60,954 nt of DNA from Akkermansia muciniphila (lineage in GTDB: Bacteria > Verrucomicrobiota > Verrucomicrobiia > Limisphaerales > BJHT01), in assembly GCA_945861535.1 (NCBI GenBank), contig CAMAUZ010000045.1, positions 1-60,954 of the forward strand, written 5' to 3'. Below are positions 2,623-52,821 of this stretch, in pieces. Each line of letters opens with the position of its first letter. Position 1 is the stretch's first letter. Under the pieces are notes generated by a model that saw nothing but the letters and a program-made list of their open reading frames with translations, ran no database searches and was not told where the DNA came from. The translations under genes and the position numbers were made by a program.

Positions 2623-4050
2623 TCAAAACCGGCGTGGGAGGCGGAAATCTTCGTCGGTGGCGAGGCGGCTGTCGGGGGTGTTCAGGATCAGGACGGCGAG
2701 GGCGGTGGAGAAGACGGGGCCCATGGAGACGGTGTTTTGCGCGTTGCCGGGCGGGACGAGGATGGAGCCGTCGGCTTTCTGGTGATCGGCGATTTGCGTG
2801 GCGAGGCGGTGGGTTTGTTCGCGGGCGAGGGCGGTGGCGGTGGCGTCGTCGGGATCGCTGAACTTGAGGGCGCGGAGGCGGAAGTAGGAGGAGTAGAAAT
2901 AATTCGGGCCGGTCCAGGCGGGCGGATGTTTCGCCAGCCAGGTGAGATTTTTTCGACGCCAGTCTTCTTTCGCCGTGGGTGTGGTGGCGAGAACCCAGCC
3001 GCCGAGGGCGCTCATGAGTTCGACCGTGAGACCTTCGTTGTCCACGCTGAAGCCGCCGATCTGGCTCGAGTTGTCGGCTTGTTCCTTGAACGAGCCGAGC
3101 AGGAAGCTGGTGGCGCGGTCGAGATTGGCGGCGGGGATTTCGAGGCCGTGGGCGCGGGCGGTGCGGAGGGCGAGCAACGCCCAGCCGGTGGCGCGGCGGT
3201 CGTTGGGGCGGCCGAGTTTTCCCTCCATGCTCCAGCCGCCGCGCGAGGGGGAGGCGCTGCTGCGGTCCTGGAGTTGGAGCAGGTGACGGAGGCCGCGTTG
3301 GATGCGGTCGCCGGTGTCGGCGCGCTGCTCGGGCGCGGTCAAGCGGGCGTGGGCGTTGAGGAGGGCGGTGAGCGTGATGGCGTGGCTTTCGGTGGGGAAA
3401 AGTTCGTCGCCGAGGAAGCCGTCGGGGCGAGCGTCTTTGGCGAGGTAGGCGACGGCGCGGGCGGTGAGGGCGGCGGTGTTGGTGGGGGCGGAGGTGTCCG
3501 CGACGGAGAGGAGCGCGAGGAGGGCGAAGGCGCTTTTGAGGTGCGGCTGGGGACCGCCGAAGGAGCCGTCGGGTTGTTGCTGGGTGGCGAGGAAATTGAG
3601 GGCGGCGTGGAGCGTGGGGGCGGGGGCGGCGGGGGCGGCGGGGGCGCTGGCGCACGGAAGGAAGAGCGTGAAAATGAGGCCGATGGAGAAGCAGCGGCGG
3701 AGCCAGCCCAGCCGGGTGATTCCACTGGTGAGGAAGGTGGCTGCTGCGAATTTGGGCGCGCTGGGGTTTGCCTCGCCGTTCTCCCTCTCCCGCTGGGAGA
3801 GGGGACAGCCTCGGACGCGCTCGGTAGATTCAAGCGTCATGGTCTCCGAAGCCGCTGGCATTGGTTCGGGGACCGTCTTGCGTGTCCGAGAAACAGAGGC
3901 GCTGCGGGCCAATCGGACGCAGGAGATGGTTCTCCCTCTCCCGGCGGGAGAGGGCTGGGGTGAGGGGGAATGGTGCGAATTTGTCTGGCGGCTGCGGTCC
4001 GCTTGAATCTGCGGGAGGTTCATCAGCGGTGATTGGAGTTCGGTGCTCAT
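2623..4050 (-). CDS. secreted prenyltransferase/squalene-oxidase-repeat-like protein
   Basis: About 475 residues if the ATG at 4050 is used. That ATG overlaps the upstream gene's TGA (ATGA), suggesting translational coupling. The mature part has the repeated pattern of alpha/alpha-barrel proteins of the prenyltransferase and squalene-oxidase-repeat fold: repeats with LATQQQPDGSFGG, AKDARPDGFLG and ADHQKADGSIL motifs and helices ending in ALLAL. A signal-peptide-like stretch (CFSIGLIFTLFLPCASA) lies over 100 residues into the ORF. The region before it is translated from palindromic intergenic repeats, so the native start is probably an internal codon near 3710-3840. It is the last gene of the long minus-strand cluster. 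Substrate unknown; the fold alone does not prove an enzyme. Confidence 0.7.
   Translation of the reverse strand: MSTELQSPLMNLPQIQADRSRQTNSHHSPSPQPSPAGRGRTISCVRLARSASVSRTRKTVPEPMPAASETMTLESTERVRGCPLSQRERENGEANPSAPKFAAATFLTSGITRLGWLRRCFSIGLIFTLFLPCASAPAAPAAPAPTLHAALNFLATQQQPDGSFGGPQPHLKSAFALLALLSVADTSAPTNTAALTARAVAYLAKDARPDGFLGDELFPTESHAITLTALLNAHARLTAPEQRADTGDRIQRGLRHLLQLQDRSSASPSRGGWSMEGKLGRPNDRRATGWALLALRTARAHGLEIPAANLDRATSFLLGSFKEQADNSSQIGGFSVDNEGLTVELMSALGGWVLATTPTAKEDWRRKNLTWLAKHPPAWTGPNYFYSSYFRLRALKFSDPDDATATALAREQTHRLATQIADHQKADGSILVPPGNAQNTVSMGPVFSTALAVLILNTPDSRLATDEDFRLPRRF
3778..3954. repeat. pair of CCCTCTCCC palindromes inside a coding leader
   Basis: Two near-identical palindromes of the form TTCTCCCTCTCCCG-(N)-GGGAGAGGG occur at 3778-3804 and 3930-3954, the second followed by CTGGGGTGAGGGG. 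They are translated in frame as part of the N-terminal extension of the 2623-4050 gene (PLSQREREN and SPQPSPAGRGR). This looks like an intergenic repeat placed between coupled genes. Confidence 0.7.
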
Positions 4051-22135: not shown

Positions 22136-22345
22136 GGTCGGCGGTTTTCCGCGCCCGCGCGGAAAACCCGTGTGGCACGAGCGCGCGCGAAGTTTCCACG
22201 CGAGGTGTGCGGAGCTGGAAGCCCGGAGACCGAAGCTGGATGCGAGGGCGCAGCGCTCATAGGTGCGGTTTTTTTGGTGGTTCCGCTGCTCTGCACGACC
22301 GGCCAATACCTTGCGTGCCTCTGGCACGACGGGGAGGTGGGACAA

Positions 22346-22538
22346 GCTCAAAGATTAAAGCTCAAAGCTCAAGGGAAGGACCAAGTTCAAAGGTTCAAAC
22401 AGGCGAGCAAGGATGTGGACCGAGTGAAAAATGCGGGTCACTTGGCGGAGCTGATTCATGCCGCAGTGAAGCACTGGACTTGGAACTTGGCGGTTGGAAC
22501 TTCCCTTGAGCTTTGAGCTTTAGCCTTGGAGCTTTTTC
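22346..22538. repeat. GCTCAAA heptamer element, inverted pair, locus 1
   Basis: The left arm has GCTCAAA, GATTAAA, GCTCAAA, GCTCAAG and then GGAAGGACCAAG (22346-22386). The right arm (22497-22538) has the reverse complement CTTGAGC, TTTGAGC, TTTAGCC. The right arm ends 15 nt from the feoB stop. The same word occurs at 25621-25803 and 31187-31606. Confidence 0.8.
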
Positions 22539-22552
22539 CGCGTCGCGCATTT

Positions 22553-24907
22553 TCACCCGAGGCCGAGGAGGCGTCCGCCCTGGTAGGTGAGGAAGGCGAG
22601 GAGCCAGGCGAGGGCACCCATGTAGGCCCATTGGAAGAGGGGCCATTTCCAGGAGTTGGTCTCGCGGCGGACGACGGCGACGGTGCTGACGCATTGGAGG
22701 GCGAAGACGTAGAAGACCATGAGGGAGACGGCGACGAGGGTGGTATAGACGGGGGTGCCGTCGGCGTGGCGCTGGGCTTGGAGTTCCTTGGCGAGGCTGC
22801 TGGTGGCGGTGTCGGATTTGTCGAAGTCACCGATGTTGTACACGACGGACATGGTGCTGACGAAGACTTCGCGGGCGGCGAAGGAGGCGACGATGCCGAT
22901 GCCCATTTTCCAGTCGAAGCCGAGGGGGGCGATGGCGGGTTCGATGAGGCGGCCGAGGCGGCCGGCGAAGCTGTGGCGGAGTTTGGATCCTTGTTCTTCG
23001 CGGTCGATGAGTTCGAGTTTTTCGCGGACGGCGGTTTCGACGGAGTTGGTGGCGGCGGGGGGTGCGTCGGCGGGGGGCGGGGCTTGGAGGGCGGCGAGTT
23101 TCAGGGCGAGGTCGGCGGGGCTGGTGATGGTGGGGAAGGCTTCCTGGATGACGGCGTTGCGGTCGCGGAAGGATTTTTCGGCGAGGGTCGGGTCTTTGGG
23201 ATAGGTGGCGAGCGCCCAGAGGAGAATATTGATGCCGAGGATGACGGTGCCGGCGCGGCGGAGGAAGAGCTTCGAGCGGTCCCACATGTGGCGCAGCGTT
23301 ATGTAAAGGACGGGGCGTTTGTAGGGCGGCAGCTCCATGATGAGGATGGGCGTTGCGCCTTTCAGCAGGGTGCTCTTGAAGAGCCAGGCCATGAGGAGGG
23401 CGACGACAATTCCCAGAAGGTACATGGCGAGCATGGTGAGGCCGGTGAGCTTGAAGAAGCCGAGGACGTGGATGTCCGGGATGCACGCGGCGATGAGGAC
23501 GGTATAGACGGGCAGGCGCGCGGAGCAGCTCATGAGCGGCGCGACGAGGATGGTGACGAGGCGGTCCTTGGGGCTTTCGATGGTGCGCGTGGCCATGATG
23601 CCGGGGATGGCGCAGGCGAAGGAGCTGAGCATGGGGATGAAGCTTTTGCCGTGCAGGCCGACGCGGCTCATCATGCGATCCATGAGGAAGGCGGCGCGGG
23701 ACATGTAGCCGGTGTCTTCGAGGAGGCTGATGAAGAGGAAGAGGAGGAGGATCTGCGGGAGGAAGATGACGACGGCGCCGACGCCTTTGATGACGCCGTT
23801 GACGAGGAGGTCGTTGAGCGGGCCTTCCGCCATGAGCGAGCCGACATGCGCGCCAATGCCGTCCACGACGGCGGAGAGGAAATCCATCGGGATTTTCGCG
23901 AAGGTAAAGATGCTCTGGAACATGAGGGCCATGAGCACGACGAAGATGAGGAGGCCCCAGATTTTGTGGGTGAGGAGGCCGTCGAGGCGGTCGCTGAAGG
24001 TGATGCCTTCCGGCGCGGTTTCGTGGACGGTGGCGGCGTGGATTTCGCCGAGGCGGGCGTAGCGGGCTTCGATGGCGCTGGTGCGCCAGTCAAGGCCGGC
24101 GGCGGTGAGCTGGGCGCGGGATTGCTCGACGGCGGTGCGGATTTCCGCGGGATAATGCGCGCCGGCGGAGAGCAGGGCCTGGTCGTCGGTGAGGAGGAGG
24201 AGGGCTTCGGGTGGCGTCGCGGTGCGGTGGTGGGGGAAGAGGGTGTCGAGGCGCGCGGCGAGGTCGCCGACGGCGCGGGTGAAAAGCGGCGGGAGGGCGC
24301 AGAAGTTGCGGGCGGCGACCGGCGTCTGAGCGAGCGCGGGAACGGTGCGGAGGATGGCCGCGCGGAGGGCGTCGATGCCTTCGTGGGCGCTGGCGACGAG
24401 CGGGAGGACGGGGACGCCGAGGCGCGCGGCGAGGCCGACGAGGTCGATTTCGTGGCCGTTCTCGGCGGCGACATCCATCATGTTGAGCGCGACGAGCGTG
24501 GGGTAGCCGAGTTCGAGGACTTGGGTGGCGTAGTAGAGGTTGCGCTCGAGATTCGAGGCATCGACGACGACGACGACGAGGGCGGGCGGCGGCACGTCGG
24601 GCAGGCGGTGGAAGAGGACGTCGCGGGAGATTTGTTCGTCGAGGGATTTCGGGCTGAGGCTGTAGGTGCCGGGGAGGTCGAGGATGGTGATGGGCGTGGC
24701 GGCGGGCGCGTTTTTGAGCTGGCCTTCTTTGCGTTCGACAGTGACGCCGGCGTAGTTGCCGACCTTGGCGCGGAGGCCGGTGAGGGCGTTGAAGACGGTG
24801 GTTTTGCCGCAATTGGGATTGCCGGTGAGCGCGACGTAGAGCGGGCCGCCCGGAGCCGCGGCCGGTGGCGATCCGGACGGGGTGGCGGCGGGGTTGGGCG
24901 TGCTCAT
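22553..24907 (-). CDS. feoB: ferrous iron transporter FeoB
   Basis: 784 residues, normal FeoB length. N-terminal G domain: G1 GNPNCGKTT (residues 29-37), G2 Thr in YAGVTVERKEG, G3 DLPG (77-80), G4 NMMD. The membrane domain carries the gate motifs LSSFACAIPGIMATR and LMSCSARLPVYTVLI. GTP-dependent uptake of Fe(II) across the inner membrane. Two FeoA genes lie directly upstream on the same strand (39-nt gap), forming feoA-feoA-feoB. A C-terminal motif (FVSTMSVVYNIGDFD) is typical. A heptamer repeat begins 15 nt after its stop. Confidence 0.97.
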   Translation of the reverse strand: MSTPNPAATPSGSPPAAAPGGPLYVALTGNPNCGKTTVFNALTGLRAKVGNYAGVTVERKEGQLKNAPAATPITILDLPGTYSLSPKSLDEQISRDVLFHRLPDVPPPALVVVVVDASNLERNLYYATQVLELGYPTLVALNMMDVAAENGHEIDLVGLAARLGVPVLPLVASAHEGIDALRAAILRTVPALAQTPVAARNFCALPPLFTRAVGDLAARLDTLFPHHRTATPPEALLLLTDDQALLSAGAHYPAEIRTAVEQSRAQLTAAGLDWRTSAIEARYARLGEIHAATVHETAPEGITFSDRLDGLLTHKIWGLLIFVVLMALMFQSIFTFAKIPMDFLSAVVDGIGAHVGSLMAEGPLNDLLVNGVIKGVGAVVIFLPQILLLFLFISLLEDTGYMSRAAFLMDRMMSRVGLHGKSFIPMLSSFACAIPGIMATRTIESPKDRLVTILVAPLMSCSARLPVYTVLIAACIPDIHVLGFFKLTGLTMLAMYLLGIVVALLMAWLFKSTLLKGATPILIMELPPYKRPVLYITLRHMWDRSKLFLRRAGTVILGINILLWALATYPKDPTLAEKSFRDRNAVIQEAFPTITSPADLALKLAALQAPPPADAPPAATNSVETAVREKLELIDREEQGSKLRHSFAGRLGRLIEPAIAPLGFDWKMGIGIVASFAAREVFVSTMSVVYNIGDFDKSDTATSSLAKELQAQRHADGTPVYTTLVAVSLMVFYVFALQCVSTVAVVRRETNSWKWPLFQWAYMGALAWLLAFLTYQGGRLLGLG

Positions 24908-24946
24908 GATTCCGCGGAGAGGTGGGGCGGGGCGGGGGAGGGCGGG

Positions 24947-25189
24947 CTACGAGGCCGGCTGGACGAGGATCAGGTCGGCCTCGTGTTTGCGGAGGGTAAG
25001 GTGGTAGCCGCGAACTTTGATTTCGATGGGGTCGCCGAGCGGGGCGAAGCGGATGAGTTCGACGGAGGTGCCGACGAGGAGGCCCATTTCGAGGAGGCGA
25101 CCGCGACTTTCGGGCGGGATCTGGATTTCGGCGACGGTGCCTTTGGTTCCCAAGGGCAGCGCGCTCAAAGGCTGTCGTACCGCGGGCAT
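24947..25189 (-). CDS. feoA: FeoA protein, second copy
   Basis: 80 residues, SH3-like FeoA domain: PLSALPLGTKGTVAEI, RGRLLEMGLLVGTSVELIRF, APLGDPIEIKVRGYHLTLRK and the end HEADLILVQP. The GDPIEIKVRGYHLTLR segment is the canonical FeoA strand pair. The ATG at 25189 follows the previous feoA stop by 2 nt. FeoA binds FeoB and supports its transport cycle in the cytoplasm. Confidence 0.93.
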   Translation of the reverse strand: MPAVRQPLSALPLGTKGTVAEIQIPPESRGRLLEMGLLVGTSVELIRFAPLGDPIEIKVRGYHLTLRKHEADLILVQPAS

Positions 25190-25191
25190 GT

Positions 25192-25488
25192 TCAGGCGGG
25201 AACGGGCGAGCGGCGCAGGGGTTCGACGAGGATGCTGTCGGCCAACTGCGAGCTGATACCGAGGCGCATGTTGCAGACCTGGCAGATGACGTTGTGCTGG
25301 TGGCTGACGAGGCGCACCTGCTGGTCTTCGCAGAAGCCCATTTCGCGGAGCCGATGGCTGATTTCCGGGGAGGAGGTCAACTGCTTGATGCGGACGGAAG
25401 TGCCGGCGCGCACTTTGCTCAGGGGGCAAAGCTCCGGGCCAAGGCACGGGCCTTCGCCGCAGGAAGCTGATTCGCCGGTCACTTTCAT
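25192..25488 (-). CDS. FeoA-domain protein with cysteine-rich N-terminus
   Basis: 98 residues, first gene of the feo operon. The FeoA core is recognisable (LSKVRAGTSVRIKQL, SHRLREMGFCEDQQVRL, LADSILVEPL). It differs from the second copy by an N-terminal SCGEGPCLGPELCPL stretch with three cysteines, and by VICQVCNMRLGIS with two more plus one in GFCEDQ, in place of the usual charged strand. Six cysteines in a small cytoplasmic protein suggest metal binding or Fe-S based sensing (inference). Alternative: a redox-regulated FeoA or a FeoC-like role. Confidence 0.85.
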   Translation of the reverse strand: MKVTGESASCGEGPCLGPELCPLSKVRAGTSVRIKQLTSSPEISHRLREMGFCEDQQVRLVSHQHNVICQVCNMRLGISSQLADSILVEPLRRSPVPA

Positions 25489-25620
25489 TGCGGCGGAAAG
25501 TACGCGTGTTGAGACTCAGTTTCAAGAGGCATCTGGAACTTGCCGGAAAAATCGAGCGCCGATGGTGCCGACGAAAGAAAACGGGATCGGGAACCGCGAA
25601 CTCGGCGAAGGAACAGGACG

Positions 25621-25803
25621 CTCAAAGTTCAAAGCTCAAAGCTCAAGGAAAGGAGCAAGGGCCAAGGTTCAAGGCCGGGGTTGTCTTACTTCCGTCGCCG
25701 TCACCAGATTGGACTCGGAAAGCCCTCGCGACGGCCGGAGCCGAATCGGCACTTGGAGGCTTGGTGCTTCCCTTGAGCTTTGAGCTTTGGGCTTTGAGCT
25801 TTC
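25621..25803. repeat. CTCAAAG heptamer element, inverted pair, locus 2
   Basis: The left arm is CTCAAAG, TTCAAAG, CTCAAAG, CTCAAGG (25621-25648). The right arm is CCTTGAG, CTTTGAG, CTTTGGG, CTTTGAG, CTTT (25770-25801). The right arm ends about 17 nt from the stop of the glycosyltransferase gene at 25820. 25489-25819 holds no gene. Confidence 0.85.
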
Positions 25804-25819
25804 CCCCCCCGTCCCACGC

Positions 25820-27347
25820 TCAGTAGGCGTTTTCGCGCTTGAAGAAGGTTTGGAACATGATCTGGAAATCCAGCCAGAGGCTCCAGTTTTCCAGATAGTA
25901 GAGGTCGTAGCGGACGCGTTCGACGAGGCTGGTGTCGCCGCGGAGACCGTTGACCTGCGCCCAGCCGGTCATGCCGGTTTTGCAGGCGTGGCGGGCGTTG
26001 TAGTGGGGGATCTCATCCTTAAAGTTGGCTATCAGTTCGGGACGCTCGGGGCGCGGGCCGACGAGGCTCATGTCGCCTTTGAGGACGTTCCAGAACTGCG
26101 GGGTCTCGTCGATGTTGGTCTTGCGCATGAAGCCGCCGATGCGCAGGCGCCGGGGGTCGTTTTTCTTTGCCCATTGCGCGCCGCCTTTTTCGGCGTCCAG
26201 GCGCATGCTGCGAATCTTGATGATCTCGAAATTCCGCCCGTTGCGCCCGGTGCGGACCTGACGGTAGAAAATCGCGCCGGGCGATTCGAGGTACACCAGG
26301 AGGCCGCAGGTGAAAATGAGCGGGGCGGAGATGCACAGGCCGACCAAGGCGCCGACGATGTCCACCGTGCGCTTCAAGGCGCGGTTGGACAGGCGGTCCA
26401 GGGGCAGTTCGGCGGCCCCGAGAATCGGCACGCTGCTGATGCTCTCCAAGTGCAGCCCGGCGAGGGTCATCTGGAAATAGGAGGGGATGACCTTGAACTG
26501 GACGTACTCGCGTTCGCACAGGTTGGTGATATCGACGATTTCATTAAACGAACGCTCGATGTCCGCCAGCACGACGATATCGACCTCTTTGCGGGCGAGG
26601 ATTTTCGGCAGGTCGCGATAGGAACCGAGTTGCGCAATCTTCTCCGGCGGGGCCATTTGAAAGCGATCCCCTTCGGCCGAAACACAGCCCACAATGTCGT
26701 AGGGATGGCGGGAGTCGGTTTCGACGGCGGTGCTCAACTGCCCGGCGTCCGCGTTCCAACCGACAAAGAGAATGCGCTGGCGGAAGTTGCGCGCGATGCA
26801 CTCGACTCGCAGCAGGCGGTAATAAATCGCCCGCCATACCAGCAGGAATCCGATGCAGACCACGTAGGAGGAGACCACGTAGAGCCGCGAGATGGGCGGA
26901 TTAAACTTCAGTTCCAGGCTTAGGCCGAGGTAGGCGAAGAGCCAGAAGGTCGTGCCTTTCAGAATGACCATGGCCACGTCCCGATAGCGGAGGAGATTGC
27001 GGGACGAATAGAGCCGGAGGAAAGCGAACGTCGAGAGCAGGAACATCGTGCCGATGGCGATCAACCGGACGTAGTGGTGGAACGGCATGTCCGGCGTGTC
27101 GATGCCGACCGGCAGCCAACTGGAGCGGAATTTGATCCAGAATCCGAGCATCTGGCTGGACAGAATGACCAACGTGTCGCCCAGCAGCGCAATCGAAATC
27201 CAAAAATCAACCGCCTTGAGGTCGCGGTGGGAATCCTTGACGTGGTTCTGGTGCGGGACCGGTTTGGGGAGGGCCGGGGGGGGGCGCAGCCGTGCGAGGC
27301 TGCTGTTCCTCCGTCCGCGCGGTGCCAGTTCTGGTTTTTGCTGCCAT
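25820..27347 (-). CDS. exopolysaccharide polyprenyl glycosylphosphotransferase, frame broken at a G9 tract
   Basis: Sugar transferase of the WcaJ/EpsE type, which loads the first sugar-phosphate onto undecaprenyl phosphate. Five membrane segments, a Rossmann-like middle ([16 protein letters not shown]) and an intact bacterial sugar transferase domain ([59 protein letters not shown]). The uninterrupted frame has no ATG before it and would start at TTG 27172 inside the first membrane helix. An ATG at 27347, with GGAG six bases upstream, opens a different frame that meets the main frame exactly if the nine-base G run at 27276-27284 were eight. With G8 the product is 508 residues and keeps [20 protein letters not shown], matching the paralogue's N-terminus. 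So this is either a phase-variable off state, a sequencing or assembly error, or a fresh frameshift. Confidence 0.85.
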
Positions 27348-27403
27348 TGCGATCTCCATAAATCGGGTCGTATCGGGCCTTCGTTAAAGCGGCTGATGAT
27401 AAA

Positions 27404-28381
27404 TCACCGTTGGGCGGTTTTCAACCAGCGACCCAAGGTATTTTCGCTCTCCACCGGCAGAGCGCCCAGAATCGGCACACTGCTGATCGTCTCCAGATGG
27501 AGCTTGGTCATGGCCATCGGAAAGTAGGTGGGCACCACCTTGAAATCGACATACTGCCGCTCGCACAGGTTCGCCAGACTCACCACCTCCTCCATCACCA
27601 GGCGCAGGTCGGTGAGCACCACGACGTCCACCTTCTGGCGTTCGAGGATTTCGCGCAGCGCCGGGTAGTCGCCCAGCTGATTCGTTTGCCGGGGCGGCTG
27701 GGTCTGGAACACCCCGGTCGGCGAGGTGATGCAGCCAACGACTTCGTAGAGGTGATGCCGGTCCTTGCTGATCGCTTCGGCCATGCGGTCGGCGTCGCGA
27801 TTCCACCCCACAAACAAGACCCGCCGACGGAAGTGCCGGATCATTCCATCCTGCTGCAGAATTCGGGAATAAGCCCAGCGCCACGGCAACAGCAACGCCA
27901 CGCAGCCAAAGTAGGACAGCAGCGCGAACAGGCGCGAGATCGGGGGTTGAAAATCCAGCGCGAGGCTGATGGCCAGGAACGCGAACACCCACACGGCCGT
28001 CCCCTTGAGGATGGCGGTGCCGGCTTCGTGGAAATTGATCAGGTTCCGGGCGTAATAAACCCGCAGATGGGCGAAGGTGAACAGCAGGAGCGTCGTGCCC
28101 ACGATGATGAGCCGCATATACTCCAGAAAAAACATCGTGGCCGCCGCGGGGTCCACCGCGAACCAGCCAGAGCGGAATCGCAGCCAGAACGCCAGCGCCT
28201 GCGACAACAAAATGACCAACGTGTCACCGGCCAGCGCGAAGGCGACCGGCAGGTCGGTCCGGACCGAGTGGCGGTCCGGCGTCGCGGCGATAACCGGTGG
28301 CGCGGGCTTGGTGGCGTCGGCCGGGGTGGGCCGCGAAGGGGTCAGGAGACGGGGCGCGGAGTGGACTTGCTGATTCGTCAT
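27404..28381 (-). CDS. truncated paralogue of the glycosylphosphotransferase
   Basis: 325 residues. Aligns by eye with the N-terminal part of the downstream gene product: DLPVAFALAGDTLVILLSQA and LAFWLRFRSGW, the membrane segments, [32 protein letters not shown]. It stops right after that point (TLGRWLKTAQR) where the paralogue begins its catalytic domain. The conserved sugar transferase motifs are therefore missing. Five hydrophobic segments and a CoA-binding-like Rossmann domain remain. Probably a decayed duplicate, but it could be a regulatory or partner subunit of the intact enzyme. 56 nt separate it from the ATG of the next gene, so they are likely co-transcribed. Confidence 0.8.
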   Translation of the reverse strand: MTNQQVHSAPRLLTPSRPTPADATKPAPPVIAATPDRHSVRTDLPVAFALAGDTLVILLSQALAFWLRFRSGWFAVDPAAATMFFLEYMRLIIVGTTLLLFTFAHLRVYYARNLINFHEAGTAILKGTAVWVFAFLAISLALDFQPPISRLFALLSYFGCVALLLPWRWAYSRILQQDGMIRHFRRRVLFVGWNRDADRMAEAISKDRHHLYEVVGCITSPTGVFQTQPPRQTNQLGDYPALREILERQKVDVVVLTDLRLVMEEVVSLANLCERQYVDFKVVPTYFPMAMTKLHLETISSVPILGALPVESENTLGRWLKTAQR

Positions 28382-28706
28382 GGGCTTCCTTGGTCAACTG
28401 GCCGGTGCCGGCCAAACTGGCAGCCGGCAACCTGCATTCCTTTTCCAGTTCGTTGTCCAATTTCTGGACGACAACCAATAGCACACCAAATCCGATCACA
28501 GCGCAAAATGGGGGTGAGAAGGCCTGAAACCGGGGCGAAGTGGATTGCCGCTGGAACGAACGGTCCGTGACGGAAGCGCCGTCACGATGCTCCCCCCAAA
28601 AAGCGTTTTCGCCGCCGCCGCCCACACCGGCCGCCCGTAGCACGACACCGCGCCGCGCCCCGGCGAATCCCCGCGCGCCGCCGTTTTCCCGCACCCGTCC
28701 GCCGGT
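28382..28706. other. intergenic, likely promoter region of the polysaccharide genes
   Basis: 325 nt between the esterase stop (28707) and the start of the truncated paralogue (28381), both minus-strand genes. It is less GC-rich near 28430-28510. A short hairpin GTGACGG/CCGTCAC lies at about 28566-28584. I see no ORF with family features and no clear -35/-10 pair. Confidence 0.4.
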
Positions 28707-31118
28707 CTACCGCGGCTTCGGCCAGTTCAGGTGCTGATGCAGGAAGTCATACGTCCCCACGCCGTGAATGCTGTGCGGACCGTTGAAATACTCGATCGTC
28801 GCCCGCTCGGGGATTCCCAGGAACGTGTAATGCCGGCGCACCTTGGAAAACTCGTACGCCACCCATTCATCCGGCGCCACGCCGTCGTGATGCCCGCGCT
28901 CGACCATGAACGGCCGCGGCGCGATCAGCATCGCCATCTCCGCGTAATTATACGTGTGGCCCAGATTGAACTCCGGCATCTCATATTCCCCCGTGAACAT
29001 GTAGCTATACCGCCCCTCCACCGTGACATTCTTCGTGATCCACTCGTTGAAATCCGCCGAGCAAATCGACAGCGCATAGCGGTCCAGCAACGCCGGCAAT
29101 CGCATCGCCGACTTCCCGCCGTAGGACAATCCGTAAAAACCAATCCGCGCCGGATCGACAAACGGCTGCTCCCCCAGCCAGTCCAGAATCCGCTCGTGCT
29201 GCCCGAGAATCACCGAGAACAACGACGCCTTCAGCGGATTCGCCTTGCGCTGCAACACCCGGAAATTGTCCTTCCCCCGGTACGGATTGTGCGGCGCGAA
29301 CGTGATGAACCCGCGCTCCGCCAGTTTCGCCGCGAACGCGTTGTAATACCGGAAGCCGCTGCTCTTCGGGTCCGTCGTCACCGTGTCCTCCGGCACGCCC
29401 TCCAGCCCGTGCTGACACACCACCACCGGCCGCCGCTCGCCCGGCTGCAGATCTTTCGGCAGCAGCAGATAGCCCCACGCAAACACGTCCGGCCAAACTT
29501 CGAGCACCACCTCGTAGCCGGTCCATTTCGGCTCGTCGTAAATCTGCCGCGTGCGCGGATTTGCCGGTTGACTCGGCGCGGGCAGACGCCCGATCACCTC
29601 TGTCCACATATCCTCCTGAAACGGTCGCCGCGCCGCCCCCCAATCATTCGTCGGCGTCGGCCGCACTTTGTTCCAAAACCGGTCCGCGCGCACCTTCTCC
29701 GAACGCCGCAGCAGTTCCTGCGTGAATGCCTCCAGTTCGCGCACCTGCCGCAGTTGCCGCGCCGCCACGTCCACGCCCGCCCGCAATTCCACCGGCCCCG
29801 TCGCCGCCAGTTCGTTCAACCGCGCCGGCCAGCCCAGCCCCGTCATGAACCCTTGCAACGCCGGCACCGATCCCGGCCCCACCGGCGTGCCCTCATTCCC
29901 ATACACAAACCGGATCGCCTGCGCGAAACGCCCCGGCTCCGCCAGCAGCGTGCGCGCCCGCTGGACCTCCAGTTCCACAGAAATAAAATCCGGCGTCTCC
30001 CACGTCCCCGGCGCCGCCCCCGCGCGACCGTCGCGCGGCGCCGGTGGACCCGTGATCTTCGGCACTGCCGAATACTCGATCACCAGCGACCGCGGGGCGA
30101 CCAGGCTCGCGATCTCCGCGTCGCCAAACTCCTGCAACAACGCGAACACATTCCGATAAATCGGCTCCTGCCACACCTTCTGGCGCGCATCGAAATACCC
30201 GCTCACCAACGTCGCATTGATCCGCGTGTCCACCGCCGCGCTATACAACGCGATCAGCCCGCCCTCCGCGTAACCCGCCACCCCGATGCGCGGCTTCACC
30301 ACGCCCTCGCCCAAGCCCTGATTCAAACTCGAAAACCAATCCACCGCCGCCAGCACCTTCTGCACCTCATACCCGATCACATGCCGTCCCATCTCATACG
30401 CCTGCCGGTAGATCCACTCGCGATGCGGCTGATTCGTGAACCGTCCCACCAGCGCGTTCCCCGACGCCGTATCCTGCCGGTCGATCAAAGTCGGGATGAT
30501 GACCTGACAGCCCTGCTCGGCCAGCCGCCGCGCCAGTTGCGCCTCGGGCGGCAAACCCGGCGCGAGCCCCAGCAACATCTCCGGCGTCTGGTCCGCATCC
30601 GGCAACACCACCACCCGCGCCACGGGCGTGCGCTTCGGCTGCACGAACAACCCTTCGCCCTGCACCCCCGCCAGCACCGGCCACCGCACTGCATACACCG
30701 TGTATCCGTCCGTCTCCGCCGCCTTCGCCGACGTGCTCGTGCTGCTCACATACTCCAGCGCTGTCACCGGCACCCGCGCATCCACCACGCCGATGTATTT
30801 GCGAAACCGCTCCCGATTCCCCGCCACCGATTTCTCGTACGCTTCGTTCGAGGAAAAATCCCGCTGCCACAACTTCTGCCGCGCCCCCACCGACTGCTCC
30901 AGTTCCCGTCGCAAAAACCGGTCAATCCCCGCCACCATCTGCGCCGACAAATCTCCCTCCATGAACAATGGCTGCGTCCCCGCCAGCGGTCTCGCCCCTG
31001 GCAACAGCTTGGGCAACTGCGCCCACGCCCGTCCCGGAGCGAACCCCGCGACCAATGCGAAACTCAGTACCACAACTCGGGAAAGCGACCAACCAAGGGA
31101 GCAGCGAAGGTGAAACAT
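28707..31118 (-). CDS. secreted double alpha/beta-hydrolase, acetylxylan-esterase-like
   Basis: About 803 residues from the ATG at 31118 (an in-frame ATG at 31160 is the alternative), with a signal peptide ending AGFAPGRAWAQ. Two hydrolase-like halves are seen. In the first, the nucleophile elbow reads GVAGYAEGG, with Ala-Glu where G-x-S-x-G is expected, so it is probably not catalytic. In the second, GFYGLSYGGKSAM supplies the serine, GHHDGVAPDEW a likely acid and GPHSIHGVG a likely histidine. QHGLEGVPED and APHNPYRGKDN resemble the dienelactone hydrolase and acetylxylan esterase group. It lies in a region with other exported polysaccharide-related genes, so deacetylation of plant or algal glycans is a reasonable guess. 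Confidence 0.75.
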   Translation of the reverse strand: MFHLRCSLGWSLSRVVVLSFALVAGFAPGRAWAQLPKLLPGARPLAGTQPLFMEGDLSAQMVAGIDRFLRRELEQSVGARQKLWQRDFSSNEAYEKSVAGNRERFRKYIGVVDARVPVTALEYVSSTSTSAKAAETDGYTVYAVRWPVLAGVQGEGLFVQPKRTPVARVVVLPDADQTPEMLLGLAPGLPPEAQLARRLAEQGCQVIIPTLIDRQDTASGNALVGRFTNQPHREWIYRQAYEMGRHVIGYEVQKVLAAVDWFSSLNQGLGEGVVKPRIGVAGYAEGGLIALYSAAVDTRINATLVSGYFDARQKVWQEPIYRNVFALLQEFGDAEIASLVAPRSLVIEYSAVPKITGPPAPRDGRAGAAPGTWETPDFISVELEVQRARTLLAEPGRFAQAIRFVYGNEGTPVGPGSVPALQGFMTGLGWPARLNELAATGPVELRAGVDVAARQLRQVRELEAFTQELLRRSEKVRADRFWNKVRPTPTNDWGAARRPFQEDMWTEVIGRLPAPSQPANPRTRQIYDEPKWTGYEVVLEVWPDVFAWGYLLLPKDLQPGERRPVVVCQHGLEGVPEDTVTTDPKSSGFRYYNAFAAKLAERGFITFAPHNPYRGKDNFRVLQRKANPLKASLFSVILGQHERILDWLGEQPFVDPARIGFYGLSYGGKSAMRLPALLDRYALSICSADFNEWITKNVTVEGRYSYMFTGEYEMPEFNLGHTYNYAEMAMLIAPRPFMVERGHHDGVAPDEWVAYEFSKVRRHYTFLGIPERATIEYFNGPHSIHGVGTYDFLHQHLNWPKPR

Positions 31119-31186: not shown

Positions 31187-31606
31187 AAGCTCAAAGTTCA
31201 AAGCTCAAAGCTCAAGGGAAGGACCAAGGACCAAGAACCAAGCGTCGTGCGGCGAAGCCGCAGCCCACGGAGCGCGGCTGTGTCCGCCGAGGACCAGCCG
31301 CAGCGGCCCCAAAACCTCGGAAGCACCCGTTGGAATCGGAGGCGTCCCCTGCGGCCAACGCGCTGCGGCTGGTGCGCCGCGCACCCAGTCGCGCTCCGGG
31401 AAAAATCCTCGCGCGCCGCGAGTATCTTGCCTTTGCACGCGTGGCCAGCCCGGCCCGCCACCAATTCATCCCCTCCCATTCCCCTGCCCCAAATTCCCCT
31501 GCCAATCGCTGCGCTGCTCCCGAGCAACTCCCTCCCGCGCCGCCAACCGCTTGCTCCTTGTCCCTTGTCGCTTCCCTTGAGCTTTGAGCTTTGACTCTTT
31601 GAGCTT
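31187..31606. repeat. GCTCAAA heptamer element, inverted pair, locus 3
   Basis: The left arm GCTCAAA, GTTCAAA, GCTCAAA, GCTCAAG then GGAAGGACCAAG starts near 31188. The right arm CTTGAGC, TTTGAGC, TTTGACT, CTTTGAGC ends near 31606, 11 nt from the stop of the DUF4380-like gene. Between the arms is other repeat DNA (AGCCGCAGCCCACGGAGCGC at 31257, and the GGCAGGGGAAT word inverted at 31471-31503). No gene in 31119-31616. Confidence 0.8.
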
Positions 31607-38166: not shown

Positions 38167-38951
38167 GAGCCGGGCGGGACGGATGGCGGACGTGCTGGAA
38201 GTGGCGTCGGCGGTGGGGCAGGGGGGGCGTTGGTGGATTTCGTCGCAGCGGGGGGAACAATCACCGGGTGGGTTTTCGTCGGCATCGGCGTGGGCGTGAC
38301 TTGGGGAGCCGGTGGCGCGAGGGCGCCGGAGTTGGTCGCGGTCCGAGCGCTCCATGCGCCGCCCACGGAGGTGAACTGCGGCCGCAGCCAGTCGAGGGGT
38401 TCGCGCGCATCGGTCGTTGACCAGACTGGCACGCTGCGGGCGCGGGCCACCTGCGGGCGCGCGATTTCGGGCGGACCCAGGTTCGTGGTGAGCAAGGGCA
38501 GTGACAACATCGGCCGGGCCAGCGAGCGAATCTCCGGCGAGAGTTTCTCCGCGCCCAGTTCCAGCGCGGCAAGATTGGTGTGCAGGAACGAGGCGAACAT
38601 GCCGCCGACGGCTGGGGAGCTCGGGGGCAGGGCCGGGTTCGGCTCGGTCCAATCTTCCAGCCGGTGTTGCCGGGGCGGGACGTTGAGCCAGCCGTTGCCC
38701 GAAAAACTCTTGGGGCTGACCAGCGCGAACAACGTGGGATCACTCGCGCCGAGAGTTTCGAGCACCTGCCGGTTGACGTTGGCGTCGAGCACTAGGGCGA
38801 TTCCGGGGCCGGGGATCGGAGGCGCCGGCGGGGGGGGCGTTTTTTCCGAAAAGACGAACAGGAGCGCGAGCTGGGCCAGGAAAAGCAGCGTCACCGCACC
38901 GCACCATCGTTGCCGTGACCAGGAAGGAGGGACTGCCGGCGGATTGTTCAT
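38163..38951 (-). CDS. single-pass proline-rich protein of the ExbBD operon
   Basis: 262 residues, no family recognised. One membrane segment near the N-terminus (WCGAVTLLFLAQLALLFVFS), a globular 160-residue periplasmic part (NRQVLETLGASDPTLFALVS) and a proline- and threonine-rich C-terminus. The topology resembles TonB or TolA (N-terminal anchor, periplasmic proline-rich stretch), but the proline-rich part is at the end and no TonB C-terminal domain follows. Both its start and its stop overlap neighbours by ATGA, so it is tightly coupled to exbD. It may be an outer-envelope energy transducer of a new kind (inference). Confidence 0.7.
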   Translation of the reverse strand: MNNPPAVPPSWSRQRWCGAVTLLFLAQLALLFVFSEKTPPPPAPPIPGPGIALVLDANVNRQVLETLGASDPTLFALVSPKSFSGNGWLNVPPRQHRLEDWTEPNPALPPSSPAVGGMFASFLHTNLAALELGAEKLSPEIRSLARPMLSLPLLTTNLGPPEIARPQVARARSVPVWSTTDAREPLDWLRPQFTSVGGAWSARTATNSGALAPPAPQVTPTPMPTKTHPVIVPPAATKSTNAPPAPPPTPLPARPPSVPPGS

Positions 38952-50428: not shown

Positions 50429-51331
50429 TCACTCGGTGGCCAGCTTCCGTTTGTTTGCGGGTGTCGGGGCGCTGGCAGGAACAGGGATTGGCGGCTCTTT
50501 CAACGTGGGCGGTCGGGTGAGCCAGCCGAGGGAGGCGAGGAATTTGTCCGCCTCGAGCAGGGTCTTCGATTTGAACGGCTCCTGGTTGAAGAAACCGTGC
50601 GCCTGCTGTTCGTAGAAGACCGCGTCGCAACGCGCGCCGGCGGCTTTCATGTTCGCCTGAAAACGCTCGACGGTGCTGACGGGGATCAGTTTGTCATTGC
50701 GGCCAAGGAACACGATGGCGGGCGGCGAGTTGGAACTTATGTTGTGTGCGGGCGAAAATTCCTTCACGCGATTGCCCACGCGCTGCTGGCCCCAGCCGCC
50801 GTCGGGGCCGTTGTCGAAGACGGGGTTGAAGAGCACGAGCGCGTTGGCTTTGGGCGACACTTTCAGATCATCCTGCGGATCGTCCTGGCCCTCGACCAGG
50901 CCGACGAAGGCCGCGAGATGTCCGCCCGCCGATCCGCCGCCCGCGCCGATGCGCTTGGGATCCACGCCCAGTTCCCCCGCGTGCGAACGTACCCAGCGCA
51001 TGGCCGACTTGGCATCGCGCACACAGATTTCCGGCGGCCCGGGAATATCCTTGAGCAACCGATACTCGACCTGCGCGCAGACCATGCCGCGGCGTGCGAG
51101 ATAGGCGGCCTGCTCGGTGAACTGCGTGGGCGTGCCACCGACCCAGCCGCCGCCGTGGAAGAACACGAGCGCGGGGCGCTGATCGGTCGCCTTCCAGTCG
51201 GCGGGTTTCACGAGCGAGAGTTTCAGTTCGCGGTCGCCGATTTTTTTGTAAACCACCGTTTCCGCGCCGTGCAGCCGAAGCGGCGCGGCGACGAACAGAG
51301 CCGTGAGTAAAACGAGAAACGTGTTTTTCAT
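50429..51331 (-). CDS. secreted alpha/beta-hydrolase esterase
   Basis: 300 residues, signal peptide (FLVLLTALFVAAPLRLHGA). HSL/BD-FAE-like fold: oxyanion loop FFHGGGWVGG (58-66), nucleophile Ser134 in GGGSAGGH, acid in GRNDKLIPV, His in QQAHGFFNQ. The tail is proline-rich. Its start overlaps the sulfatase stop by ATGA (51328-51331), so both are made from one transcript. Probably removes acyl groups from a sulfated glycan. Confidence 0.88.
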   Translation of the reverse strand: MKNTFLVLLTALFVAAPLRLHGAETVVYKKIGDRELKLSLVKPADWKATDQRPALVFFHGGGWVGGTPTQFTEQAAYLARRGMVCAQVEYRLLKDIPGPPEICVRDAKSAMRWVRSHAGELGVDPKRIGAGGGSAGGHLAAFVGLVEGQDDPQDDLKVSPKANALVLFNPVFDNGPDGGWGQQRVGNRVKEFSPAHNISSNSPPAIVFLGRNDKLIPVSTVERFQANMKAAGARCDAVFYEQQAHGFFNQEPFKSKTLLEADKFLASLGWLTRPPTLKEPPIPVPASAPTPANKRKLATE

Positions 51332-52821
51332 TTCGGTGCGGGGTTGGTTTTTTGGGTGATGGCAATGCTGACGTCGTTCGCCTGTTTCGCGCCCGGCGTG
51401 CTGCGGCCGTTGGCGAAATAGTCTTCGAGCAGGCGGGAGAGTTTGGCGACCACTTCCGGGTGCTTCGTGTGGAGGTTCTTCGTTTCGCCGGGATCGGTGG
51501 CGAGGTCATAGAGCTGAACGTCGGGCAGGTCCTGCTGCTTGGCGTCGGCGTCGCCGGGTTTTCCCCAACCGCCGGAGCCGGGGCAGAGTTCGAGTTTCCA
51601 CGGACCCTGCCGGATGGCGAAGCGGCCGTGGATGCTGTGGTGCACAACGGCTTCGCGCAGCGGCGCGGGGTCGCGGCCGAGCAATGCGGGGAGCAGGCTC
51701 ACGCTGTCTTCGCCTGAACTGGCGGGGAGTTTCGCGCCGAGGATTTCCGCACAGGTCGCAAGCAGGTCGGTGTGGCAGATGAGCTGCGAACTCTGCGTGC
51801 CGGGTTTCACCTTGCCGGGCCAGCGCGCGAAGAACGGCACGCGATGACCGCCATCCCAGATGTCGGCCTTGTAGCCGCGAAACTGGGCGCTGGCGAAGTG
51901 GCCCTGCTGTTCGAGCTTCGCGGTGCCGGCGGCGGGCGAGCAGCCGTTGTCGCTGGTGAAAATGACGAGCGTGTCGTTCGCGACGCCCGCCTGCTCGAGC
52001 GCGCCGAGCACTTCGCCGACGGCCCAGTCGGTTTCCATCACGAAGTCGCCGTACTCGCCGAGGCCGCTTTTGCCCTGCCACTCGCGGCTCGGGACGATGG
52101 GCGTGTGCGGCGAGTTGAGCGCGAGGTAGAGAAAGAACGGCCCGCCGGCTTGGGCGCGGACGGCAATGTGTTCGCGTGAACGCCGGACCAGCGCGGGCAG
52201 CAGGTCCACCGGCTCGATGATTTGCGTGACGCGGTCATTTTCAAACACCGACTTCATCATGCGCGCGTGATGAAAACCGAAGAACGTGTCGAAGCCGCGC
52301 GTGACCGGACCGTCGCGCGTGATCGCGCCGAGCGGCGCGCCCGCGAGCTTGCCCTGGCCCGGGCCGCCGCCGCGTTTGTCTGCGCCCGCGATGGTGTAGC
52401 CGAGATGCCATTTGCCAATGCACGCGGAGTGATAGCCATGCTGCTTCAGCAACGCGGGCACCGTGAGCCGGCCGGCGGCGATCAGCGGCGCGACGTAGCC
52501 ATCGAGCACGCCGTTCTGGAGCCGCGTGCGCCAGGCATGGCGCCCCGTGAGCAATCCGTAGCGCGTGGGCGTGCAGACGGACGAGCCGCTGTGCGCGTCC
52601 GTGAAGGTCAGGCCCTGCGCCGCCAGCTTGTCGAGGTGCGGCGTCTTGATCTTGCCGCGCTGCGGATTGAGGCACTGCACGTCGCCGTAGCCGAGGTCGT
52701 CGGCGAGGATGTAAACGAGGTTGGGTTTGCGCGCGGCGTCGGCGGCGGGGAGGGCGGCGAGCGGCAGCAGGAGCAGGGCGGCGAAGGCGGCGAGGAGGAA
52801 TTTGGCGGGCCGGTTGTTCAT
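51328..52821 (-). CDS. secreted formylglycine sulfatase, family S1
   Basis: 497 residues, signal peptide (FLLAAFAALLLLPLAALPAADA). Metal-binding Asp41-Asp42 in YILADDLGYGD, sulfatase signature SVCTPTRYGLLTGR with Cys83 as the formylglycine site, later GKWHLG, ALNSPHTP and FTSDNGCSP motifs. An anaerobic or aerobic formylglycine-generating enzyme is needed and is not in the window. It cleaves sulfate esters of polysaccharides in the periplasm. Coupled with the downstream esterase. Confidence 0.95.
   Translation of the reverse strand: MNNRPAKFLLAAFAALLLLPLAALPAADAARKPNLVYILADDLGYGDVQCLNPQRGKIKTPHLDKLAAQGLTFTDAHSGSSVCTPTRYGLLTGRHAWRTRLQNGVLDGYVAPLIAAGRLTVPALLKQHGYHSACIGKWHLGYTIAGADKRGGGPGQGKLAGAPLGAITRDGPVTRGFDTFFGFHHARMMKSVFENDRVTQIIEPVDLLPALVRRSREHIAVRAQAGGPFFLYLALNSPHTPIVPSREWQGKSGLGEYGDFVMETDWAVGEVLGALEQAGVANDTLVIFTSDNGCSPAAGTAKLEQQGHFASAQFRGYKADIWDGGHRVPFFARWPGKVKPGTQSSQLICHTDLLATCAEILGAKLPASSGEDSVSLLPALLGRDPAPLREAVVHHSIHGRFAIRQGPWKLELCPGSGGWGKPGDADAKQQDLPDVQLYDLATDPGETKNLHTKHPEVVAKLSRLLEDYFANGRSTPGAKQANDVSIAITQKTNPAPK

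Follow-up and report, generated by a model that had tools for sequence, protein, structure and literature searches.

A frame break of one base at or next to a nine-base C run in a predicted polysaccharide priming transferase gene, a plausible case of phase variation in Verrucomicrobiota

Results

The priming-transferase gene and its neighbourhood

The window, the whole stretch of DNA analysed here (60,954 nucleotides of contig CAMAUZ010000045.1, from a genome of the verrucomicrobial lineage BJHT01), carries on its minus strand a gene that the first-pass annotation had named as a polysaccharide priming enzyme. The family models bore out this identification. The product reached 223.9 bits with PF02397 (cut-off 27) and 401.5 bits with TIGR03025, the model of exopolysaccharide polyprenyl glycosylphosphotransferases (cut-off 295.55), and PF13727 was detected with 28.8 bits. 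In scoring above both of these curated cut-offs the product resembles the TIGR03025/PF02397 polyprenyl glycosylphosphotransferases, and it differs from WcaJ, WbaP and EpsB_2 in that the cut-off of each of these narrower models was missed; for WcaJ (TIGR03023, undecaprenyl-phosphate glucose phosphotransferase) the score was 382.1 against an equivalog cut-off of 410.75 bits. Because of these scores no sugar was assigned. The solved sequences that were matched belong to WbaP-type and N,N'-diacetylbacillosaminyl-1-phosphate transferases. The predicted product is a polyprenyl-phosphate sugar-1-phosphate transferase, which looks functional and would initiate a surface polysaccharide; the gene is one of three with PF02397 that were found in the genome. 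It is adjoined by Feo-like iron-transport genes, named from reading their open reading frames. The features of the locus are as follows.

27404-28381, minus strand: upstream paralogue, N-terminal half only, without the sugar transferase domain
27396-27424, minus strand: candidate sigma-70-like promoter by consensus match, TTGAAA-17-TATCAT, upstream of the ATG
27354-27357, minus strand: ribosome-binding site GGAG, six bases upstream of the ATG and kept in the congener
27345-27347, minus strand: ATG, most likely the true start codon; residues 1-21 align on residues 1-21 of the congener protein
27285-27347, minus strand: 21 codons of the ATG frame that precede the run and encode the N-terminus
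27207-27347, minus strand: short open reading frame that starts at the ATG of the assembled allele; 46 codons followed by a TGA at 27209-27207
27276-27284, minus strand: homopolymer run, C9 on the gene strand (G9 on the plus strand); the frame changes at or beside it
27170-27172, minus strand: TTG, the first common start codon of the main frame, inside the first hydrophobic segment
25820-27275, minus strand: main coding frame after the run, with the first hydrophobic segment, PF13727 (CoA-binding-like) and PF02397; stop at 25820-25822

The ATG at 27347-27345 and the GGAG six bases upstream of it, at 27357-27354, were present as the first-pass annotation had described them. So was the one-base offset between the ATG frame and the main coding frame, which we measured against the congener orthologue, with the G9 run at 27276-27284 lying between the two. 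The C9 follows codon 21 of the ATG frame, and a long mononucleotide run in the coding or promoter part is one of the features that mark a phase-variable gene. Given the offset and an intact orthologue for reference, it is the length of the run that decides whether the start and the main frame are joined.

The promoter-like consensus occurred once in the scanned stretch against a mean of 0.2 in shuffled sequences, and at the same place the congener has TTGAAA-17-TACCAT. The main frame belongs to a long frame that is open through the run from 27403 to 25823, 527 codons from stop to stop. Between 27403 and the TTG at 27172 this frame contains no ATG, GTG or TTG. A start at this TTG would cut the first hydrophobic segment, because the TTG lies inside it.

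An N-terminus recovered by removing one base from the run had been said to match the paralogue next door. This could not be upheld: the 21 residues upstream of the run gave no alignment with the paralogue at E values up to 100, and the paralogue aligned only from the codon at the edge of the run onward. The paralogue was dropped as support for the N-terminus, and the congener orthologue was taken as the right comparison. A paralogue-type match also adjoins the transferase gene of the congener. As an N-terminal half without a catalytic domain, the paralogue may be a partner or regulator of the transferase.

A dispersed inverted repeat of AAGCTCA heptads was observed between genes at three places in the window, 22344-22520, 25632-25801 and 31187-31606. 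The repeat AAGCTCAAAGCTCAA is present in 352 copies in the window's genome and 360 in the congener, and in 0 to 4 copies in seven other genomes of the order; a reversed control gave 0-1. The heptad copy that directly follows the stop codon of the transferase folds into a long hairpin (z -6.14 as DNA). A heptad core lies within 25 bases of 13 of the 146 long G/C runs described below.

Comparison with the congener orthologue

Among the 57 relatives searched only one genome (G001) is of the same genus, and no second genome of the window's own species was found there. The run length is known from one assembled consensus sequence. The congener keeps the gene order (BLAST blocks 25752-29673 and 22522-25534), and its orthologue, an open frame of 506 codons, has the matching ATG as its start and shares the ribosome site. 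The 21 amino acids from the window ATG to the run were 62% identical to the congener N-terminus (E 9e-8), and the main frame after the run was 95% identical over 450 amino acids. Since each side aligns with the same congener protein, the two sides of the run are parts of one protein, and the ATG at 27347, upstream of the run, is the likely start.

From the ATG to a conserved in-frame anchor the window has 127 nt and the congener 120. Both have 63 nt between the start of the ATG and the run, without an indel, and therefore the net difference of seven bases sits at or after the start of the run and amounts to one base too many. At the place of the uninterrupted C9 the congener has an interrupted stretch. 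Judged against this orthologue, the frame of the assembled allele is broken by one base at the C9 run or beside it.

Conservation of the codons between the two genomes differed along the gene. The 21 codons before the run were only loosely conserved, with 4 silent and 8 changed, and the 26 between the run and the TTG were conserved, with 6 silent and 3 changed. From the TTG at 27172 the main frame of 450 codons showed 81 silent and 22 amino-acid-changing codons, with 21, 15 and 80 changes by codon position. Such a pattern shows purifying selection on the main frame, and for this reason the break is a recent one.

The codon pattern bears on the reading that the frameshift is fixed, that is, that the lineage has lost the enzyme and retains a young pseudogene. 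In favour of it are the broken frame of the assembled allele and the two other PF02397 genes of the genome, with which a loss could be tolerated. Against this, the 527 open codons hold no second lesion and the main frame is strongly constrained; a nine-base run would be expected to revert readily, and fixation without decay would have to be very recent. We consider a fixed loss improbable.

The enzyme could also be made in spite of the break, either by a ribosome that slips by +1 on CCC CCC CCC or by initiation after the run, at a TTG or a rare start codon. Sequences of the CCC CCC CCC type favour +1 frameshifting; in the ATG frame the run consists of three proline codons, and +1 is the sign required. 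A programmed shift should have a site conserved among orthologues, and comparison with the congener did not reveal such conservation: without the run and without a frame change, the congener reads straight from the same ATG. For a downstream start there is the TTG at 27172; counted from 27346 in the main frame it is codon 59, and it lies inside the first hydrophobic segment. The 21 codons upstream of the run, moreover, match the congener N-terminus. Expression despite the break is in our judgement improbable too.

Homologous loci in the order

We examined 30 homologous loci, at most one per genome and the window's own included, from the 57 genomes with a match. A run of at least nine bases was found only in the window locus; it was absent from the congener and from the 28 other loci. 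The nearest observation was a C8 at nt 393 of the open frame of one locus (L022). The open frame reaches its first start codon at codon 77 in the window and between codons 0 and 45 in the 29 others. A run common to the order was rejected for the 29 other loci examined, and conservation of the run in orthologues of relatives, which would support a phase-variable gene, was not observed. A switch, if there is one, would not be shared among the 30 loci examined.

Number and frame of long G/C runs in the genome

In 7.94 Mb we counted 45 distinct G/C runs of at least nine bases, where 19-54 were predicted from run-length decay, and 150 of at least eight (105 of exactly eight and the 45 longer ones), where the prediction was 95-216. 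Long G/C runs are thus not in excess genome-wide over the decay prediction, and an excess was rejected as support for a switch. What is remarkable is not the run itself but where it lies, with a conserved start on one side of it and a conserved frame on the other.

The frame was examined at 146 distinct runs (all 45 of at least nine bases and 101 of length eight, which comprise those listed of the 105 and one more at a contig start), of which 144 lay away from contig ends. A codon model assigned 126 of these 144 as noncoding or edge, 15 as in frame and 3 as frame switches. One of the three switches (L173) was a gene junction and was rejected as a frameshift; the other two (L113 and L186) were real breaks. 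Nine of the 126 were inspected by eye and three of them were accepted as in-frame coding runs (L083, L090 and L091), among them a G11 in frame at L090. The window's own run had been put among the 126 by the codon model, and its break was found by homology. The classified coding runs came to 3 breaks and 18 in frame (15 by the codon model, 3 by eye; two of the 18 in one gene, L071), and both numbers are lower bounds, as most of the 126 were judged by the codon model alone. Left out of this tally as ambiguous was a G9 between a small open reading frame without a family match and an NMT1-like gene (L107).

Two of the in-frame loci are described for their own features. At L091 (G000:C30:35765-41773, at 3001-3009) a G9 lies in an O-antigen-ligase-type gene (PF04932) and the frame is open across it; an in-frame G9 in this gene is needed neither by slippage nor by a miscall as the explanation of the break. 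At L071 (G000:C1:193145-199169, at 3001-3025) the inspected G9 is joined by a C9 in a perfect inverted repeat, whose arms of 12 bases flank a single base, within an open frame with a BRO N-terminal domain.

An automatic scan was made for frame switches near runs of each length. Near G/C runs it gave 42 switches at 1361 runs of four bases, 13 at 278 of five, 8 at 40 of six, 0 at 2 of seven and 3 at 16 of eight and nine, one of the three being L173. The numbers near A/T runs were 13 at 228 (five bases), 4 at 64 (six) and 2 at 12 (seven). Switches near G/C runs of 4-6 bases were not clearly rarer than near those of at least eight, and the switch sites inspected by eye (window near 38250, L103 and L173) were gene junctions. 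Since ordinary gene junctions confound it, the switch rate by run length was dropped as a control. The automatic scan gives no clean background, and the frame breaks consequently rest on homology.

For the congener a sample of 27 runs of at least nine bases in 20 stretches, about half of 51 matches, was passed through the codon model; 25 were noncoding or edge, one was at a contig end and one was a frame switch. At this switch (L217, G001:C19:12700-17700, at 2498-2506), a C9, a sulfatase-like C-terminus was recognised on the right by reading against the open reading frame at window 51328-52821, and the left side had no visible continuation. By this reading it is not a simple one-base break and would be a rearrangement or misjoin. 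C runs of up to 59 bases occur in two other congener stretches (L220, G001:C33:31200-36300, at 2503-2590; L231, G001:C213:1-4800, at 2179-2291); noncoding or edge by the codon model, they are perhaps artefacts.

Two further genes broken at long runs

The first of the two other breaks (L113, G000:C140:1077-7085) was found in a gene for an NHL-repeat protein of more than 1600 codons, which is split at a G9 (C140:4077-4085) inside a repeat; the next repeat copy stands in the other frame and is 69% identical. The second (L186, G000:C63:7086-12157) breaks a gene for an immunoglobulin-domain protein by one base at a G8 (C63:8587-8594). Its congener orthologue is 81% identical with an intact open frame of 879 codons, and has a shorter, interrupted stretch there. 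The broken gene is the first of four related proteins in a row (G000:C63:8586-19832). From their domains both products are inferred to be surface proteins.

All three breaks have the same sign, one base too many (or two too few). They are compatible with slippage under weak or fluctuating selection and also with a systematic miscall, and the shared sign does not discriminate between the two.

A sequence or assembly error is the main rival to slippage. The real run would then be in frame, the gene intact and the consensus length off by one. Several observations fit an error: homology is good on either side of the run, the congener orthologue is intact, and a systematic miscall would give the three G8/G9 breaks a shared sign. 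In the accessible part of PMC3711429, singleton frame breaks confirmed by BLASTp are expected to be mostly sequencing errors, and the part of PMC8808543 that was available gives an estimate, for a metagenome set, of spurious Illumina homopolymer indels in up to 1% of genes. On the other side, the 18 other coding runs, of 8-11 bases, are in frame; runs of this length are thus not misassembled as a rule. A coarse scan of 311 kb gave 39 switches, and the two inspected groups that lay off the long-run breaks were ordinary gene junctions, which is a weak argument against an error. We regard an error as unlikely, if still a serious contender.

Discussion

Replication slippage at the run is in our view the most likely cause of the break, with about an even chance of being right, and would give the locus a behaviour like phase variation. 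Several observations were counted in its favour: the ATG frame and the main frame, flanking the run, are each homologous to one and the same congener protein; the constrained main frame marks the break as recent; among the 30 loci the window alone has a run of at least nine bases and so late a first start codon; two other genes of the genome break at such runs with the same sign; and a G9 in an Akkermansia gene has changed its length in culture. Counted against it were the single consensus, the absence of the run from the congener, the lack of an excess of long runs, the 18 in-frame coding runs of at least eight bases, the frame switches near shorter runs in the automatic scan and the loose conservation of the 21 codons before the run. 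The first-pass annotation had called the tract probably phase-variable. The part of this claim that concerns an allele out of frame by one base at or beside the G9 stood, and "probable" was too strong a word for one consensus sequence. We consider phase variation of the transferase plausible from the sequence.

The events could have been the following. In the lineage of the window, a C-rich stretch after codon 21 would have become an uninterrupted run of nine bases, and replication slippage at this run would then have altered its length. Ribosomes starting at the conserved ATG of the assembled allele would stop after 46 codons, and no enzyme would be made (OFF). Because slippage is frequent and goes in both directions, cells with an in-frame length and a restored enzyme would be expected in the same population. 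Slippage as the cause, the coexistence of ON and OFF cells, the reversibility of the change and its effect on the surface sugar are what we infer from the locus. A run of this kind would be born by chance and behave like a phase-variable one, and would not be a long-kept switch: an evolved switch is disfavoured because a run of at least nine bases is missing in the congener and the 28 other loci and because the genome has no excess of such runs.

Homopolymer runs switch genes by slippage in Campylobacter, Neisseria, Helicobacter and Bordetella, many of these genes serving surface structures, and variability has been shown for many of them. The window's genome differs from these contingency systems in having long runs in chance-level number, and its gene is known from one consensus.

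A closer comparison is found within the phylum, in Amuc_1413 of Akkermansia muciniphila, a gene of exopolysaccharide biosynthesis with a Wzz domain and a G9 run, as described in the available text of PMC13055324. According to that text the run changed in culture from G9 to G10 in 4 of 9 sequenced mutants, cutting the product from 735 to 98 amino acids; the frameshift lies at residue 55 of 735, was present in 87-91% of reads and was read as phase variation. Among 100 Akkermansia genomes the same text gives G9 in 32, G8 in three and G10 in one. As far as this text goes, the two cases are alike in phylum, in a G9 early in a polysaccharide gene and in a one-base change that truncates the product. 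They differ in that Amuc_1413 is not a priming transferase and its G9 is in frame, whereas that of the window is out of frame; in that length variation was observed there, whereas the window gene is known from a single consensus; and in that 32 of the 100 Akkermansia genomes keep G9, whereas the one congener of the window lacks the run. Two capsule genes of Akkermansia had been listed earlier with long runs, in the portion of PMC3048395 at hand. Slippage at a G9 is thus of a kind already known, down to phylum and run length. The literature matches listed included none that describes such a run in the priming transferase of a free-living Verrucomicrobium, and no direct case of phase variation in Verrucomicrobia or lakes beyond Akkermansia.

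What loss of a priming transferase can do is illustrated by a Klebsiella mutant with a disrupted wcaJ frame, in which, by the available part of PMC7142929, the loss was tied to loss of surface sugar and of phage adsorption, and so to phage resistance; the lesion given there is an IS1 insertion and not a homopolymer change. A wider reading, which we regard as rather improbable, is that a free-living Verrucomicrobium has a small phasome, in which quickly arising and vanishing G8-G9 runs would randomise the surface sugar (through the transferase gene), an NHL-repeat protein and an immunoglobulin-domain protein, so that phage receptors and attachment would differ among the cells of a population.

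Phase variation, error and pseudogene are told apart in PMC3711429, as far as its available text shows. If the run at the priming-transferase gene does not vary, the locus gives reason for caution, since in a draft genome a frame broken at a long run has exactly the appearance of phase variation. If the run does vary in the source population, a seemingly free-living member of the phylum would turn on and off the enzyme that heads one of its polysaccharide pathways; among the literature matches listed, switching in this phylum is otherwise reported for the gut genus Akkermansia.
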